A DNA stretch of 64,000 nucleotides from a bacterium (lineage in GTDB: Bacteria > UBP6 > UBA1177 > JAKLFG01), in assembly GCA_022709425.1 (NCBI GenBank), contig JAKLIW010000004.1, positions 62,001 to 126,000 on the forward strand, written 5' to 3'. The notes beneath the pieces were generated by a model. The model had not been told where the DNA came from. It saw only the letters and a program-made list of their open reading frames with translations, and ran no database searches. This document shows, piece after piece, positions 26,753 through 50,338 of this stretch. The translations under genes were made by a program, and so were the position numbers. Position 1 is the stretch's first letter. Each line of letters begins with the position of its first letter.

Positions 26753-29113
26753 TTACTGTTCCAGCGGACAGCTGTACAGATACATATAATCGCCGGGGTA
26801 GTCGTTGGAGCCGTAACCACCCTCCTCGGTCTGGAAATTCTGGAAGATGACGGTGGTCGGCGGAGTGGCGGTGGTGATGTCGAGGTACTGATCCATATCA
26901 TCGACATAGTCGTTGTAGGGAGTCGTCTGGTATGCGGTTCCGTTGGCAGTCATCTGGAAGCCGTTCATGACGGTCTCCTCGTCGCTGATGAATCGTGTTC
27001 TGATACGGTTGGTGGGGTAGGCGACAGTCGCCGGAAGGGCCGTTCCTTGATAGCGCGCCTCAAGATTGCAGGTCGCCGGCACCGTGCCGTGGGTGAATGA
27101 GGGGCATGCCGATATCTGGACATGATCGTAGGAGCAGGAGGCGTTATATTCGATGCCGTCGGCGAGTATCCGCAGAGTAATCAGGCCGATGTTGTTGTTT
27201 GAATCGAGTACCCATAGCCGCTCGGTGTCGGCGGGATAGGTGCCTGAGTCGGGGTACTTGATGATGACCTGCCCGCTGCGGATGATCTCGAAGCCGCTCT
27301 TGTTGGTGCCGCTGTCCGAATCGAAGTAGACATAGGCTTTCCGCGCGTTGATGGTGTAGTCAGTGGTGGTTTCGGCGTAGTCGCTCGGACTGCACTTCTT
27401 GCCCGATGCATCGGTGTAGCCGGGGCAGATCGAGGTCTCGGGGGTCCAATCGCTGGCGTCTATATCGCCCAGATAGGTGACTACGACCTTGTTTTCCGGT
27501 TGGGTCGTCGCCGAACAGTCGGCGGCGCAGTAATCGCCGTCCGCCTCGTTGCCGTCATCGCAGGCTTCGGCGCCGGTCTTGTAGCCGTCCCCGCAGTCAT
27601 CGGGACCGGTGGTGAAGGTGAATGTGTAGTCGGCCGCCATGGGGTTGCCCGCCGTGTCGGTGATGGCGGTGGTGAGGGTGATGGTGTAGAGTTTCTCGCC
27701 GATGAACGGAACGGTGGGGGTAAAGGTTGCCGTCAGGCCGTTTGCCGAAAGATCCACGGTCCCATCCACCGTGGCGGTATCGGTCGTGTTGACCACGGTC
27801 ATCGTCGTCCCGGTCACATTCATTACCGGTTCGCTGAAATCAGCCGATATCTCGCTGGTCGTTATCGGGGCGGGGTTGGTGCCGTTGACCGGATCGGTCG
27901 AAACGACCGTCGGGGCGATGGTATCGCTGGTCGAGAAATGGAAGGTCGCCTGCGTCATAGTGTTGCCGGCCGCATCGCTCACGGCGGTAGTGAGGGTGAT
28001 CGTGTAGGTGGTATCGGTCGGAAGATCGGCGTCGGGAGTGAAGGTGAGCACTGTGTCGCCCACCGACCACGCGAGTGTGCCGGTAACCGCCGGAGCGCCG
28101 TTGTCGCCGACGATCGTGAGGCTGGTGCCGAACACTACCGAGGCGGTATTCATCGCTTTGGAGAAGGTCAAGACAATGGCGGTATCGACCGCCACATCGG
28201 TCGTCGGCGACGGAGTGGTGAGGGTCGCTGTCGGCGGGTTGAAGTCGGTCGTGAAGGTCCAGTCATATTCTTTGTCGAGATAGTTGCCGCTGGTATCCTG
28301 TATCGTATCGGGAACATTCACGGCATAGGTGGTGTTGTTGGCGAGGTCATCAAGTAGTTTGACCGTGAGCGTCTTGCCGTCGACCGAGAGCGCGGAGTTG
28401 GTCGAATCGATTTCGATGGTCGGCGTTATCGTGATGACGTAGATCGGATCTGAACAGCCGCCGCCTGAAACGAGTGTCGTTTCATCGACCGGCCGGCTGA
28501 AGGTGATGACGAGGTCGGGGCGTAACTGGTTGGTTTTTGCGGCGTCACCGGGAGCGGTAAAGGTCGCGGTGAAGATGCCCGCGTCGACATCGGTGTCGGG
28601 CTCTTCCTCGGTCAGAATTGAATCGGAATCGGTGTCGGGTTCCTCCTCGGTCAGGATCGAATCGTCGTCGGTTACCACGGTGCCGTCGTCGGTTACCACG
28701 GTGCCGTCGTCGGTCACCACGGTGCCGTCATCGGTTACCACGGTGCCGTCGTCGGTTACCACGGTGCCGTCGTCGGTTACCACGGTGCCGTCGTCGGTCA
28801 CCACGGTGCCGTCGTCGGTCGGCGGATTATTATCCTGAAGTGAGTCCTTATCCTGTGGCGGAGTGGTGCCCGGCTTGCAATAGCCGTCGATGCAATCGTA
28901 CCCGGTCGGACAGGAGCCGTCGGTGCACTCTGAAGCGCCGATACACTCCCCGAGGGGATCGCCGTTCTCGTCAACGATCTCGCCGCTGGTAAAACAATAC
29001 TCCGAAATGGCGCAATCGTCGTTGGTCTGACAGTTAACGGCCTCTTCATCGACCGCGCAACCGGCGACAAGAAGCAGTGCCGCGAACAGAAGCATCATCG
29101 CATTCTTAAGCAT
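26753..29113 (-). CDS. Large lipoprotein with Ig-like (Big_5) domains and TVVTDDG repeats
   Basis: A 786-residue surface lipoprotein. The lipobox is LVAGC (Cys19). A cysteine-rich segment (about 25-90) precedes seven exact TVVTDDG repeats and two DSILTEEEPDTD units, forming an acidic stalk. About three Big_5 (SbsA Ig-like) domains follow, recognisable by ADFSEPVMN-, TYTITLTTAVSDAAGNTMT- and AGNPMAADYTFTF-type blocks. A DUF4215/Myxococcus cysteine-rich repeat comes next (CGDGYKTGAEACDDGNEADG), then an unrecognised C-terminal domain of about 230 residues. The ATG at 29113 has a GGAGGGATCC site; a longer reading upstream crosses the promoter. Likely an adhesin or surface stalk protein. Confidence 0.82.
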   Translation of the reverse strand: MLKNAMMLLFAALLLVAGCAVDEEAVNCQTNDDCAISEYCFTSGEIVDENGDPLGECIGASECTDGSCPTGYDCIDGYCKPGTTPPQDKDSLQDNNPPTDDGTVVTDDGTVVTDDGTVVTDDGTVVTDDGTVVTDDGTVVTDDGTVVTDDDSILTEEEPDTDSDSILTEEEPDTDVDAGIFTATFTAPGDAAKTNQLRPDLVITFSRPVDETTLVSGGGCSDPIYVITITPTIEIDSTNSALSVDGKTLTVKLLDDLANNTTYAVNVPDTIQDTSGNYLDKEYDWTFTTDFNPPTATLTTPSPTTDVAVDTAIVLTFSKAMNTASVVFGTSLTIVGDNGAPAVTGTLAWSVGDTVLTFTPDADLPTDTTYTITLTTAVSDAAGNTMTQATFHFSTSDTIAPTVVSTDPVNGTNPAPITTSEISADFSEPVMNVTGTTMTVVNTTDTATVDGTVDLSANGLTATFTPTVPFIGEKLYTITLTTAITDTAGNPMAADYTFTFTTGPDDCGDGYKTGAEACDDGNEADGDYCAADCSATTQPENKVVVTYLGDIDASDWTPETSICPGYTDASGKKCSPSDYAETTTDYTINARKAYVYFDSDSGTNKSGFEIIRSGQVIIKYPDSGTYPADTERLWVLDSNNNIGLITLRILADGIEYNASCSYDHVQISACPSFTHGTVPATCNLEARYQGTALPATVAYPTNRIRTRFISDEETVMNGFQMTANGTAYQTTPYNDYVDDMDQYLDITTATPPTTVIFQNFQTEEGGYGSNDYPGDYMYLYSCPLEQ
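28664..28820. repeat. 21-bp tandem repeat, seven copies, coding for TVVTDDG
   Basis: Seven consecutive 21-base units plus a partial one, differing only at a few third-codon positions (GTCGTCGGTTACCACGGTGCC type). They lie in the stalk region of the Ig-like lipoprotein. In-frame units allow length change without frameshift. Confidence 0.95.
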
Positions 29114-44563: not shown

Positions 44564-44628
44564 TGTACAGCGGTCGATGAAACACCGTAGTGTGTTGGGT
44601 CATTATTAACACGATGATGGAGAGAGAG

Positions 44629-45132
44629 ATGAAGAAAGGCTTTACGTTGATCGAGCTCATGATCGTTATCGCGATCATCGGTATTCTTGCGGCCGTCGCT
44701 ATCCCGATGTACAACGACTACACCAAGAAAGCGCGTACCTCGGAAGTTCCCGGTTCGCTGAAAGAGATCGTGAAAAACCAGCTCGCGTTCCGTGAGGATC
44801 CCTATCAGGGTAACGGTACCCGTTATGCGGCCAACATCGGCACCATCGGTTGGAAGACCAACCTGAACACGCAGGCTACCGCTGCGTCCGGTTGCGAGGC
44901 TGGCGGCACGGGTATTAGCACTACCACCTACACATGGGCGTGTGGTAAGTACTTCGCGTACGGCGCGGCCAACAATGGCTCGACCGAAGCGGCCTGTTCC
45001 CCCACCACCCTTTCTGGCGAAAACCAGACCTCCTACGCCAAAGCCGCCGCTGGGGTTCCGCTTGACAAAGTTCCGGCCGACTGGGATGCGGGTGCCTGCA
45101 TGAATGTCAATCTGTCGCTCATCCACGACTAA
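44629..45132 (+). CDS. pilA: Type IV pilin (prepilin), first copy
   Basis: A 167-residue prepilin. The leader MKKG is cleaved before [20 protein letters not shown], with the invariant Glu5 of mature pilin. The helix continues [17 protein letters not shown]. The globular part has four cysteines (SGCEAG, TWACGK, EAACSP, GACMN), able to form two disulfides. The start is MKKG at 44629 after a GGAG site; an earlier in-frame start adds a nonsense leader. It has a sigma-54 promoter and a strong terminator, marking it as a highly expressed major pilin. Confidence 0.95.
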
Positions 45133-47044: not shown

Positions 47045-47506
47045 TTGAGGAGTGGTTTTACCCTTATTGAGTTGATGATCGTTATTGCCATCATCGGGGT
47101 GATGGCATCGGTTGCTATTCCCATGTACAATGATTACACGAAAAAGGCTCGAACATCCGAAGTCCCTGAAATGTTAAAGGGTGTCTCGCAGGCACAATTC
47201 GTTTTCTTCGAAAATCCCTACGAGGGGAACACGCAACGCTATGCTTCCCGCATCGGCACCCTGCAATGGAGCACCAGTTTGCGGACGCACAACAACGGGA
47301 CGCCCATACAGCCCGATATACATGACTACGATAATGCCGACGGCACCTATTGGTTCTTCAATGCACAGAATGACCAGACCTGCAATAGTTTGAATGTTCT
47401 GAACAAGGGCTTTGCCTCCGCCGTACCCAAAGAACCGCAAAATGTTCCGGGGGACTGGCAGATCGGCGCCTGTATGAATACTACCAAAGATATTCATCAC
47501 CAGTAG
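47045..47506 (+). CDS. Type IV pilin (prepilin), second copy
   Basis: A 153-residue prepilin starting with TTG (GGAG site about seven bases upstream). The leader is MRSG before [20 protein letters not shown]; the following [17 protein letters not shown] is identical to the first pilin. The globular domain differs, with two cysteines (QTCNSL, GACMNT) and the shared end motif [11 protein letters not shown]. It begins four bases after the GT-C gene. A minor pilin or an alternative major pilin for antigenic variation are both possible. Confidence 0.93.
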
Positions 47507-47573: not shown

Positions 47574-48437
47574 ATGCGACCGGCGATGATACAACAGAAT
47601 GGCGATTGGACAACGATCATCTCTCCTGTGCGGTATAGGCGACTCATAGATGTTAAAGAACTGATCGCTTACCGCGATCTGGTCCGTCTTTTTATCAAGC
47701 GCGACTTCATTACCCAGTACAAGCAGACCATCCTTGGTCCGGCGTGGTTTCTTATCCAGCCGCTCCTTACCACCGCCATGTTCCTTGTGGTATTCGGCAA
47801 GATAGCCAAGATACCGACCGACGGGGTTCCCCAGCCGCTTTTTTACATGGGCGGTCTTATCCTCTGGAATTATTTTTCGGGGATACTTACCCAAACCTCG
47901 TCGGTGCTGACCGCTAACGTTCACCTCTTCTCCAAGGTCTATTTCCCGCGATTGGTCGTACCGATAGCACAGGTCGTGGCGGGACTGGGACGCTTCGCCA
48001 TCCAGTTTGCCCTGTTCGCGGCGTTGTATGTGTTTTATCTTTCCATAGGCATGAAGAGCGCTATCGGTTGGACACTCTTGTTTTTCCCCCTGACGCTTCT
48101 CTATGTCGCAGTGCTCGGCTTCGGTGTCGGACTCATCATTAGCGCCTTCACCACTCGCTACCGCGATCTGCAGGTGGGGTTGTCATTCCTCCTGCAGTTG
48201 TGGATGTACGGTTCACCCATTGTTTATCCTGTATCTCTTATTCCCGAAGAGTGGCGCAGCCTCTACCTCCTCAACCCGGTCGTCCCGGCGATGGAATCAT
48301 TCAAATATATCTTTTTTGGAGCCGATTTGCCGCCGCTATCGGTGTTTGGCACAGGCATTGCGGTAACGTTTCTGCTACTCGTGGTTGGGCTGTTCTTTTT
48401 TAACAAAGTGGAGAGAACTTTTATAGATACCGTTTAG
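47574..48437 (+). CDS. wzm: Polysaccharide ABC exporter, membrane subunit (Wzm type)
   Basis: A 287-residue ABC-2 type permease with six helices. The segment LIAYRDLVRLFIKRDFITQY ahead of helix one, GPAWFLIQPLLTTAMFLVVFG, GGLILWNYFSGILTQTSSVL and FTTRYRDLQVGLSFLLQLWMYGSPIVYP are characteristic of Wzm/KpsM-like O-antigen exporters. It moves undecaprenol-linked polysaccharide across the inner membrane with Wzt. The ATG at 47574 overlaps its ribosome site; ATG 47586 is an alternative. Unusually, the partner wzt gene is not adjacent but 578 bases away, separated by a repeat-flanked cassette. Confidence 0.93.
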   Translation: MRPAMIQQNGDWTTIISPVRYRRLIDVKELIAYRDLVRLFIKRDFITQYKQTILGPAWFLIQPLLTTAMFLVVFGKIAKIPTDGVPQPLFYMGGLILWNYFSGILTQTSSVLTANVHLFSKVYFPRLVVPIAQVVAGLGRFAIQFALFAALYVFYLSIGMKSAIGWTLLFFPLTLLYVAVLGFGVGLIISAFTTRYRDLQVGLSFLLQLWMYGSPIVYPVSLIPEEWRSLYLLNPVVPAMESFKYIFFGADLPPLSVFGTGIAVTFLLLVVGLFFFNKVERTFIDTV

Positions 48438-48497
48438 GGTTGAGCGTGAGTTGAGCGTGAGTTGAGCAGGGGTTGAGCGGGAGTTGAACAGTTGAGA
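48438..48497 (+). repeat. Left GTTGAGC array
   Basis: Six units of GTTGAGC or variants (48439, 48450, 48461, 48472, 48483, 48491), spaced mostly by 11 bases as GAGTTGAGCGT. The last contains the TTG start codon of the four-helix-bundle gene. Confidence 0.95.
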
Positions 48498-48860
48498 GAG
48501 TTCGGATTTGAGAAATTGGAGGTCTGGAAGTTGTCGGTGAGTTTTGCGCGCGACATTTACATCATAACGAAAGGATTCCCGAAAGAAGAAGTGTATGGAT
48601 TAACCTCGCAGTTGAGGCGAGCGGCCGTTTCGGTTTCTTCCAATATAGCTGAAGGCTCGTCGCGAGCCTCCCTGAAAGATCAATCCCGCTTCTCCGAGAT
48701 CGCATACGGAAGCCTTATGGAAATAATGAGTCAACTCGCAATAGCAAAGGAACTGGGATTTCTTGAAGAATCTGTTTTTTACGATATGCGCACAAAATCA
48801 GAGATGCTTTCTGTCAAACTGAATGCATTGCGCAAATCGCAGGTGGATCGACATGGCTAA
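48492..48860 (+). CDS. Four-helix-bundle protein (23S rRNA IVP / S23 family)
   Basis: A 122-residue protein of the TIGR02436/PF05635 family: FEKLEVWKLSVSFARDIYII, KGFPKEEVYGLTSQLRRAAV, SVSSNIAEGSSRASLKDQSR, FSEIAYGSLMEIMSQLAIA and KELGFLEES. The family was found as the reading frame inside intervening sequences of 23S rRNA and is related in fold to Avd of diversity-generating retroelements; its biochemical role is unknown. The TTG start lies within the last left repeat. The gene splits the wzm-wzt pair and is flanked by inverted repeat arrays, in keeping with an inserted element. Confidence 0.9.
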   Translation: MREFGFEKLEVWKLSVSFARDIYIITKGFPKEEVYGLTSQLRRAAVSVSSNIAEGSSRASLKDQSRFSEIAYGSLMEIMSQLAIAKELGFLEESVFYDMRTKSEMLSVKLNALRKSQVDRHG

Positions 48861-48870
48861 ACTACTCAGC

Positions 48871-49006
48871 AGGCGCAGCCGCTCAACGGTCGTATTTGCC
48901 CACTCAACAGGCGTAGCCGCTCAACGGGCGTATTTTCCCACTCAACAGGCGCAGCCGCTCAACAGCGAAGCGCTTAACAGGCGCAGCCGCTCAACTCCCG
49001 CTCAAC
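48871..49006 (+). repeat. Right GCTCAAC array
   Basis: Two 38-base tandem units (48871-48908 and 48909-48946; start AGGCGCAGCCGCTCAACG, end CCCACTCAAC), then two shorter ones. In all eight copies of GCTCAAC or ACTCAAC/GCTTAAC (48881, 48902, 48919, 48940, 48957, 48972, 48989, 49000). Complementary to the left array. Confidence 0.93.
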
Positions 49007-49015
49007 GGAGTCCCC

Positions 49016-50338
49016 ATGTCTGACATAGTGATATCGGTAGAGCATCTCACCAAAGAGTACAGGATCGGCGCCATCACTCACCGCACTTTTCAACGCGACC
49101 TGCAATCATGGTGGGCCCGTATGCGCGGGAAAGACGACCCGAATCTGCCGGTGGATGGTGGGCGTCGTAAGAAACTGGAGGCACTGGCCGACGAGAACGG
49201 TATCATCCATGCGCTGAATGATGTTTCGTTCGAGGTAAAGCAGGGAGAAGTGCTCGGCATCATCGGGAGGAACGGCGCCGGGAAATCGACCTTGCTCAAG
49301 ATTTTGTCGCGAGTCACTGCGCCAACATCAGGATGTGTGAAGATAAAAGGGCGTATCGGTAGTCTTCTCGAGGTGGGGACCGGGTTCCATCCTGAACTGA
49401 CCGGCCGCGAGAACATCTACATGAACGGCGCCATCCTTGGGATGAAGAAGCGGGAGATAGATCGAAACCTCGATGAGATCATCGATTTCTCCGGCGTCGA
49501 GCAGTTCATTGATACGCCGGTCAAACGCTATTCGTCCGGCATGTATGTGCGGCTTGCCTTCGCCGTCGCGGCGCATCTTGACCCAGAAATACTCGTAGTT
49601 GATGAAGTGCTTGCGGTCGGCGATGCCGAGTTCCAGAAAAAATGTCTCGGCAAGATGGACGATGTGAGCAAGAAAGAGGGGCGGACAGTTTTTTTTGTTT
49701 CCCATAATATGAGTGCCATAAGGCAGATATGTTCTCGGGGCATTTTGATTTATAACGGATCTCTTGCCTGCGATAGCGAGTGTGCCGAAGTGGTGGCGCG
49801 GTATTTATACTCGGCAAGTGGCGGAAAAAATGCGAACTCCGAGCCGTCGATAGGACGAAAATGGTCGTCAACAAATCGGCCATTTGCAAAAATTTTAGAA
49901 ATATGCTCCATTGTTGCCGAGAGTGAAAAAGGCGAGCAGCTTGTCAAAATAGATTCAGATACGCCGTTTTGTCTTGTCATAGACTACAACATACTGAAAG
50001 AAAGGTCATATGCGGCGTTCACTTTTGTTTTCCATGATAGCGAGCTCAACTGCGCCTTTAGTGCGATTAGTAACCACGAGTCAACCTATTACAATAAACC
50101 GATGAATATCGGCTCCTATCGGACGAGGTGCCACATCCCGGGAATGTTTCTCAACGCCGACAGGTATTCGGTGTCTATTAATGTGCTGACAAGGAATTAT
50201 CGACAGTTGCTCTCTCTGCCACATTTCCTAACTATAAATATTGATGATGGATTGGGGGTGCGTGGTGACTATACACATGGCTATTCCGGTAGCGTAAGAC
50301 CTTTTTTACAATGGCATACTGAGAGGTGTACTCCATGA
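49016..50338 (+). CDS. wzt: Polysaccharide ABC exporter, ATPase with C-terminal glycan-binding domain (Wzt type)
   Basis: A 440-residue ATPase. Walker A GIIGRNGAGKST (about residue 85), the Wzt-typical IGSLLEVGTGFHPELTGREN, signature YSSGMYVRLAFA, Walker B ILVVDEVLAVGD and the switch histidine VSHNM are all present. An insert (residues 25-65) precedes Walker A, usual in this family. Residues about 275-435 form a beta-sandwich Wzt C-terminal domain, which in O9a-type systems recognises the non-reducing-end cap of the finished chain. The ribosome site GGAG directly follows the last repeat of the cassette. Its last bases overlap the methyltransferase gene. Confidence 0.93.
   Translation: MSDIVISVEHLTKEYRIGAITHRTFQRDLQSWWARMRGKDDPNLPVDGGRRKKLEALADENGIIHALNDVSFEVKQGEVLGIIGRNGAGKSTLLKILSRVTAPTSGCVKIKGRIGSLLEVGTGFHPELTGRENIYMNGAILGMKKREIDRNLDEIIDFSGVEQFIDTPVKRYSSGMYVRLAFAVAAHLDPEILVVDEVLAVGDAEFQKKCLGKMDDVSKKEGRTVFFVSHNMSAIRQICSRGILIYNGSLACDSECAEVVARYLYSASGGKNANSEPSIGRKWSSTNRPFAKILEICSIVAESEKGEQLVKIDSDTPFCLVIDYNILKERSYAAFTFVFHDSELNCAFSAISNHESTYYNKPMNIGSYRTRCHIPGMFLNADRYSVSINVLTRNYRQLLSLPHFLTINIDDGLGVRGDYTHGYSGSVRPFLQWHTERCTP

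Follow-up and report, generated by a model that had tools for sequence, protein, structure and literature searches.

A possible IVS-type insertion element in a protein operon: a PF05635 gene between complementary short-repeat arrays at a wzm-wzt junction

Introduction

The present study concerns an unexpected piece of DNA between two transporter genes, wzm and wzt, in the window, i.e. the whole 64,000-nucleotide stretch that was analyzed. The piece holds a gene of the 23S rRNA intervening sequence (IVS) protein family between two arrays of short repeats, and the question is what such a cassette is and how it came to lie in a protein operon. IVSs are known in the 23S and 16S rRNA of Coxiella, Leptospira, Salmonella, Campylobacter, and CPR bacteria; where rRNA IVSs come from and what their S23 protein does have, to our knowledge, been standing questions since about 1990. 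An earlier reading of the sequence (the original prediction) had proposed that the cassette is a free-standing relative of these elements.

Results

The locus has the following features, where G000 is the window genome, G001 its congener, and G002 and G004 are genomes of the same family.

47589 to 48437, forward strand: wzm, ABC-2 transporter permease gene (PF01061, 5e-22), upstream of the insertion, stop codon TAG at 48435-48437
48438 to 49015, forward strand: inserted cassette, 578 bp, missing from G002 and G004; G001 has it together with an additional gene
48439 to 48496, forward strand: left array of five GTTGAG units and one GTTGAA, mostly at an 11-nt period, G-rich on the sense strand
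48492 to 48860, forward strand: PF05635/TIGR02436 gene (23S rRNA IVP, S23; four-helix bundle), 122 aa
48864 to 49006, reverse strand: right array, the complement of the left one, with seven CTCAAC units, one CTCAGC and one CTTAAC
49007 to 49010, forward strand: GGAG at the end of the insertion, from its sequence the likely wzt ribosome-binding site
49016 to 50338, forward strand: wzt, ABC transporter ATPase with Wzt C-terminal domain (PF00005, 1e-22; PF14524, 2.6e-4), downstream of the insertion

The PF05635 gene between GTTGAG and complementary arrays, as originally described, was borne out by the sequence and by profile match, and the boundaries also agreed: a single base (48438) separates the wzm stop from the array, and the right array stops directly at the GGAG, in keeping with the stated end at the wzt ribosome site, with the wzt ATG at 49016. 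The unit counts required adjustment. There are six left units as claimed, one of them the GTTGAA variant rather than GTTGAG, and the right array is complementary as claimed, its eight predicted units being replaced by the mixture listed above. TRF assigns the left array a period of 11 at 48439-48487, and the periods of the right array are 38/17-21 nt, with small palindromes separating its units. The TTG start of the PF05635 ORF falls inside the last left-array unit. The arms 48472-48489 and 48989-49006 do pair at 17 of 18 positions, and a repeat search extends them to 23 nt at 87%. The PF05635 ORF is the only gene content of the cassette, in which no transposase, recombinase, nuclease or reverse transcriptase was found.

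That wzm and wzt are normally adjacent and that the cassette has been inserted between them was upheld by comparison within the family. The junction is empty in G002 (locus L036), where it measures 1 nt, and in G004 (L035), where it measures 3 nt, and Wzm is 86–87% identical in these genomes; because the genes lie 1–3 nt apart there, 48438-49015 is an insertion. The cassette is present in both the window genome and its congener (locus L049) and is therefore not an assembly artefact of one genome. No target-site duplication was visible at the window's own insertion site. A second empty-site case occurs at a DUF1385|prfA junction (the name DUF1385 being our own reading of the neighbor gene), with a cassette in G043 and none in G064 and G065 of the same family. 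In the congener an additional gene of 479 aa, of the AlbA_2/HATPase_c_4 type (L049:178-1617), is enclosed by GTTGAG arrays and wedged between wzm and the PF05635 gene.

The window ORF scored 119 bits against the PF05635 profile (cut-off 33.8) and 113 bits against TIGR02436. Its nearest solved chain, and the sole one found by sequence, is 2GSC (XCC0516; E 9e-24), a relative that forms a homopentameric torus. In the broad family alignment (A1) the residues R43, S47, N51 and E54 of an RxxxSxxxNxxE core are invariant or nearly so. The dN/dS of the gene against its orthologue in the congener was 0.16, and two further PF05635 pairs gave 0.08 and 0.06; by this measure the cassette proteins are under purifying selection. 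Copies sharing a genome had a median best identity of 46%, with none above 80%, and are as a rule old and diverged.

The duplex of left and right arms had a predicted energy of −57.3 kcal/mol compared with a mean of −47.3 (sd 4.1) for shuffles, a value reached by 6 of 500 shuffles, or 2 of 500 when the left arm was shuffled, and the pairing of the window arms is beyond chance. The same was not true for the 591-nt RNA of the whole cassette, for which extra stability over shuffled sequences had been anticipated: its MFE of −193.3 is no more stable than shuffles (−188.6, sd 8.2; z −0.57), and a stable global RNA fold was rejected on this basis. Both the MFE and the centroid structure of this RNA join the two arrays around the ORF. 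Across loci, mismatches within arms were G.U and A.C in 300 versus 240 instances (52 versus 45 loci); G.U is not clearly in excess, and covariation gives no clear signal that the arms pair as RNA.

How general is the arrangement? PF05635 genes from whole genomes of many families were surveyed together with 80 named GTDB loci, the latter found by profile scan of genome contigs with a narrower alignment (A2) instead of A1, so that the named set leans toward relatives of the window protein. The left flank (150 nt) was aligned to the reverse complement of the right flank (200 nt), with a threshold score of at least 18. Inverted arms at this threshold flank 131 of 220 genes (60%), some related loci sharing ancestry so that the counts are not all independent; about 40% of the genes have no detectable inverted arms in the tested flanks. 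The corresponding frequency fell to 3.0% when flanks were taken 600 nt more distally and to 2.5% when they were swapped at random, and it was 16% in direct orientation, and in multi-copy genomes arms matched their own partner in 61% of cases as against 4.8% when swapped between loci of the same genome. Among control families, whose contexts were not operon junctions, inverted arms were found at 0 of 30 ParE and 0 of 28 AlbA_2 genes; AlbA_2 was accordingly rejected as a regular array cargo, despite the one such gene within arrays of the congener. Arms generally consist of repeated 7–8-nt units, and in 114 of 118 the sense strand of the left arm is rich in G and poor in C. A search for arrays around PF05635 genes outside rRNA had been put forward as a check, and most such genes are in fact flanked by them: the array-PF05635-array design is widespread in bacteria outside rRNA, pointing to a large population of insertion elements that has apparently gone undescribed. 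Genes of a second family, GxxExxY (PF13366; L283-L312), had inverted arrays at 14 of 29 loci, of separate types (CACAGAG, CGCAAAGG and ACGCGAATG), which suggests that cassettes of this kind carry GxxExxY as another cargo. Carriage by phage was also considered and dismissed, with a single partial match among 2.9 million viral contigs scanned.

The positions of the cassettes follow a pattern. For 204 genes with called neighbors, 137 lie between two genes in the sense orientation and 12 are antisense to both, and the arrays frequently start at or overlap the upstream stop codon; TAG was rejected as an insertion target, being in only modest excess among upstream stops (39% versus 25%). Certain junctions recur in unrelated genomes. 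Cassettes occupy wzm|wzt in the window genus, in five Pedobacter species and in G203, moxR|DUF58 in G028 and unrelated Flavobacteriia, and a tolC|hlyD-like junction in Flavobacteriia, where names other than wzm and wzt are our own reading of the neighbor sequences, and the proteins at recurrent junctions are not each other's nearest relatives. The host operons have very different functions, and wzm|wzt is not the general home of the family: at most of the other wzm loci wzt is too close for a cassette or not adjacent, L276 having a wzm-wzt gap of about 870 nt. A further cassette lies at cmr2|cmr3 on a plasmid of the cyanobacterium Picosynechococcus, and a PF05635-family gene is reported at cmr2|cmr3 in Pleurocapsa as well (PMC3936711).

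Arms are specific to the locus. In G043, G218, G123 and others every copy has a different unit (e.g. AATGGCT..., CACGTTA... and TTAGGTTA...), complementary to that of its own partner, and arm pairs from different loci scored at least 18 in 1.4% of comparisons within genomes versus 1.3% between genomes, so that in multi-copy genomes the idea of arrays as a property of the host genome was rejected. Arm similarity drops fast as the proteins diverge, and even at the orthologous wzm|wzt site of Pedobacter the arrays vary by species while mostly remaining self-complementary, the exceptions being L139, not self-complementary in the tested flank, and L152, weakly so. For arms to be both locus-specific and self-complementary, either pairing must be selected for or one arm must be copied onto the other.

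For the GTTGAG type in the window genus, arrays do behave as a property of the host genome. G000 has about 12 additional sites with such arrays and no PF05635, and G001 has 9, mostly directly 3′ of a stop codon and in sense orientation; G002-G004 have none. The original prediction had counted arrays scattered without the gene as evidence against itself, and their occurrence shows that this array type has a life of its own in the window genus. These solo arrays (L413-L430) are often mixed with small palindromes and TAGGGGCG..CGCCC-type repeats. At one of them (L417, G000:C45:62574-63931) a YhcG_C (PF06250) nuclease-like ORF lies within two direct GTTGAG arrays about 1.3 kb apart.

Long direct duplications of target sequence lying outside the arrays, roughly 33–117 bp and of the kind that insertion leaves, were present at three other loci (L224, L435 and L440). 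At L224, in G076, 98 bp of the 3′ end of a ferredoxin-domain gene are directly duplicated on both sides of an array-PF05635-array cassette; the upstream copy is cut short at the junction (..TPELD*), and the original end seems to survive in the downstream copy, as if the cassette had inserted inside the end of the gene with a long target duplication. G035 has palindromes of about 700 bp at up to ten places (L435-L444), in which a central hairpin lies between two divergent PF05635-like genes and degenerate 7–8-nt arrays flank the whole. Over 278 nt, two copies have 97–99% identity. Two of the palindromes are flanked by direct duplications, of about 33–49 and 101–117 bp, and a third by a weaker one of about 50 bp. 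Recent multiplication within genomes was confined to these twin elements and was not seen in the general PF05635 set.

A motif screen of 226 surveyed PF05635 genes returned one clear rRNA case, L256, in which the ORF lies inside a 23S rRNA gene (a single LSU match spans it) between arms of GACAGA type (left GAGAGGACAGAGTACAGGCGACAGATGACAGAG, right CTGTTTTCAGTCTTCTGTTCTCTGTCCTCT). A stand-alone cassette, L010, has GACAGA-type arms as well, and in the IVS of Coxiella the S23 ORF is preceded by three tandem GACAGAT heptamers, the 28-bp stem of that IVS being cut by RNase III, which excises it (PMC4990558). The likeness of these three indicates that arrays belong to the IVS design in at least these cases and are not a peculiarity of one locus.

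Discussion

The cassette between wzm and wzt is inserted, co-oriented with its operon, and bounded by self-complementary arms, and its protein is under purifying selection. Its closest likeness is to rRNA IVSs, with which it shares an S23 ORF within terminal inverted repeats that can form a closing stem, in sense orientation in a transcribed host gene. The host transcript here is a protein operon, however, and the arms are long degenerate tandem arrays; because the rRNA location that defines an IVS was tested and is absent, the element is not an rRNA IVS, and excision by RNase III, as known for rRNA IVSs, would be a prediction for the window cassette. What stands of the proposed free-standing relative is thus the insertion, the IVS anatomy and the matching arms of the rRNA case; arrays that also occur without the gene and a fold not above random count against it.

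Other known systems share part of the design. Stand-alone TIGR02436 genes (XCC0516/2GSC; cas loci) are of the same family with the same in-operon location, but inverted arrays and a reading as insertion elements do not feature in the available portion of their description (PMC3936711). REP/RAYT and MITE-type foldback elements likewise have a single gene within inverted repeats and related solo repeats elsewhere, whereas PF05635 is not an HUH nuclease or transposase and cassette arms are locus-specific; nor does the cassette have the transposase or recombinase of its own that marks an insertion sequence or transposon. Avd of diversity-generating retroelements (DGRs) has a PF05635-type fold working with nucleic acid, and DGR targets too are at gene 3′ ends. 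PF05635 has been named in the DGR context (PMC10053308), but the window cassette has neither an adjacent reverse transcriptase nor a template and variable repeat (TR/VR), its neighbors being wzm and wzt. Cyanobacterial STRR heptamers and the TAACTGA arrays of Beggiatoaceae, the latter just upstream of start codons, resemble the arms as intergenic arrays of about 7–8 nt near start or stop codons; both are direct arrays, and their descriptions include neither a gene that they flank nor an inverted counterpart (PMC4679880). The GTTGAG arrays of the window genus do share with STRR-type repeats a dispersal independent of any gene. Each component is known by itself, be it the stand-alone S23 gene, the rRNA IVS or the short tandem array, and their combination is apparently new: no account joining them was found in the open-access literature, most subscription papers lying outside the scope of the search.

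We favor, at about an even chance of being right, the reading that 48438-49015 is an IVS-type insertion element in a protein operon and one of a widespread population of cassettes. The cassette would be transcribed together with the wzm-wzt operon, and in the transcript the arms would form a long, imperfectly paired stem whose loop holds the PF05635 ORF. By analogy with rRNA, a double-strand RNase such as RNase III could cut this stem and leave wzm, PF05635 and wzt on separate messages, which would make insertion at a junction cheap for the host. The PF05635 protein, whose relatives are toroidal pentamers, may bind arm nucleic acid and serve upkeep or spread of the element, and new copies, judging by the other loci, would insert at gene 3′ ends and leave long direct target duplications. 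Action in the transcript is favored by the sense bias, the fixed polarity of the arms and the rRNA parallel.

An alternative explanation, somewhat unlikely in our view, is that the arms act at the DNA level, as the ends of a small non-autonomous or trans-mobilized element of MITE or REP/RAYT-like kind forming single-stranded DNA hairpins, with RNA folding incidental. This is consistent with the lack of an RNA-specific covariation signal in the arms, with multiplication of the palindromic twin-gene element in G035 (at 97–99% identity over 278 nt), with the direct duplications that flank three elements, and with dispersal of one array type in the window genus. A pure DNA element would not be expected to produce the 137:12 bias toward operon sense or the fixed G-rich polarity, however, and same-genome copies seldom share arms and the cassette has no nuclease. 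The dispersed arrays bear also on the possibility that arrays came first, i.e. that tandem repeats of the STRR or TAACTGA kind built up 3′ of stop codons through slippage or dispersal and then received PF05635 genes, the inverted layout being secondary. The solo GTTGAG arrays behind stops in G000 and G001, the AlbA_2 gene also enclosed by such arrays, and the TAACTGA arrays just upstream of start codons (PMC4679880) would all fit, but the genera without the cassette (G002-G004) are also without arrays, in multi-copy genomes every PF05635 locus differs from the others in array type and yet has two arrays complementary to each other, and ParE and AlbA_2 genes are without inverted arrays, so we regard an array-first origin as improbable.

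Even less probable is that the cassette is a domesticated regulator in which the PF05635 protein and the hairpin set the Wzm:Wzt ratio, for example if binding of the stem uncovered the wzt start. The wzt ribosome site does come from the insertion, the protein is under purifying selection, and the cassette has been kept at the same junction in two congeners and five Pedobacter species, wzm|wzt being a recurrent site; against this, cassettes sit in operons of very different function, arms turn over rapidly at orthologous sites, and same-family genomes manage without the cassette.

Extending the favored reading of an IVS-type insertion element, we speculate, with considerable doubt, that PF05635 cassettes, together with those of GxxExxY, make up a class of foldback elements, as yet undescribed and with one gene each, which insert at gene 3′ ends, duplicate tens to about a hundred target bases, and have their arms made anew at or after each insertion, rRNA IVSs being the minority that landed in rRNA. 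Remaking of arms at each insertion would explain why they are locus-specific and yet self-complementary, and it would suggest a copying mechanism, e.g. synthesis by target priming or template switching with help from an Avd-like protein. If most PF05635 members do live in protein operons, each between complementary arrays peculiar to its locus, the IVSs of rRNA would be only the conspicuous part of a general insertion element, one open to study in tractable genes with empty-site controls. This would also give a reason for the many genes annotated as "four helix bundle protein" and for many unexplained short inverted arrays in bacterial genomes.

Two other features of the window may be recorded. 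A pair of type IV pilin-like genes with nearly identical N-termini (44590-45132 and 47045-47506) lies upstream of wzm, on opposite sides of a large membrane-protein gene, and tandem repeats with periods of 39 and 21 occur at 28584-28819, probably within a coding region.
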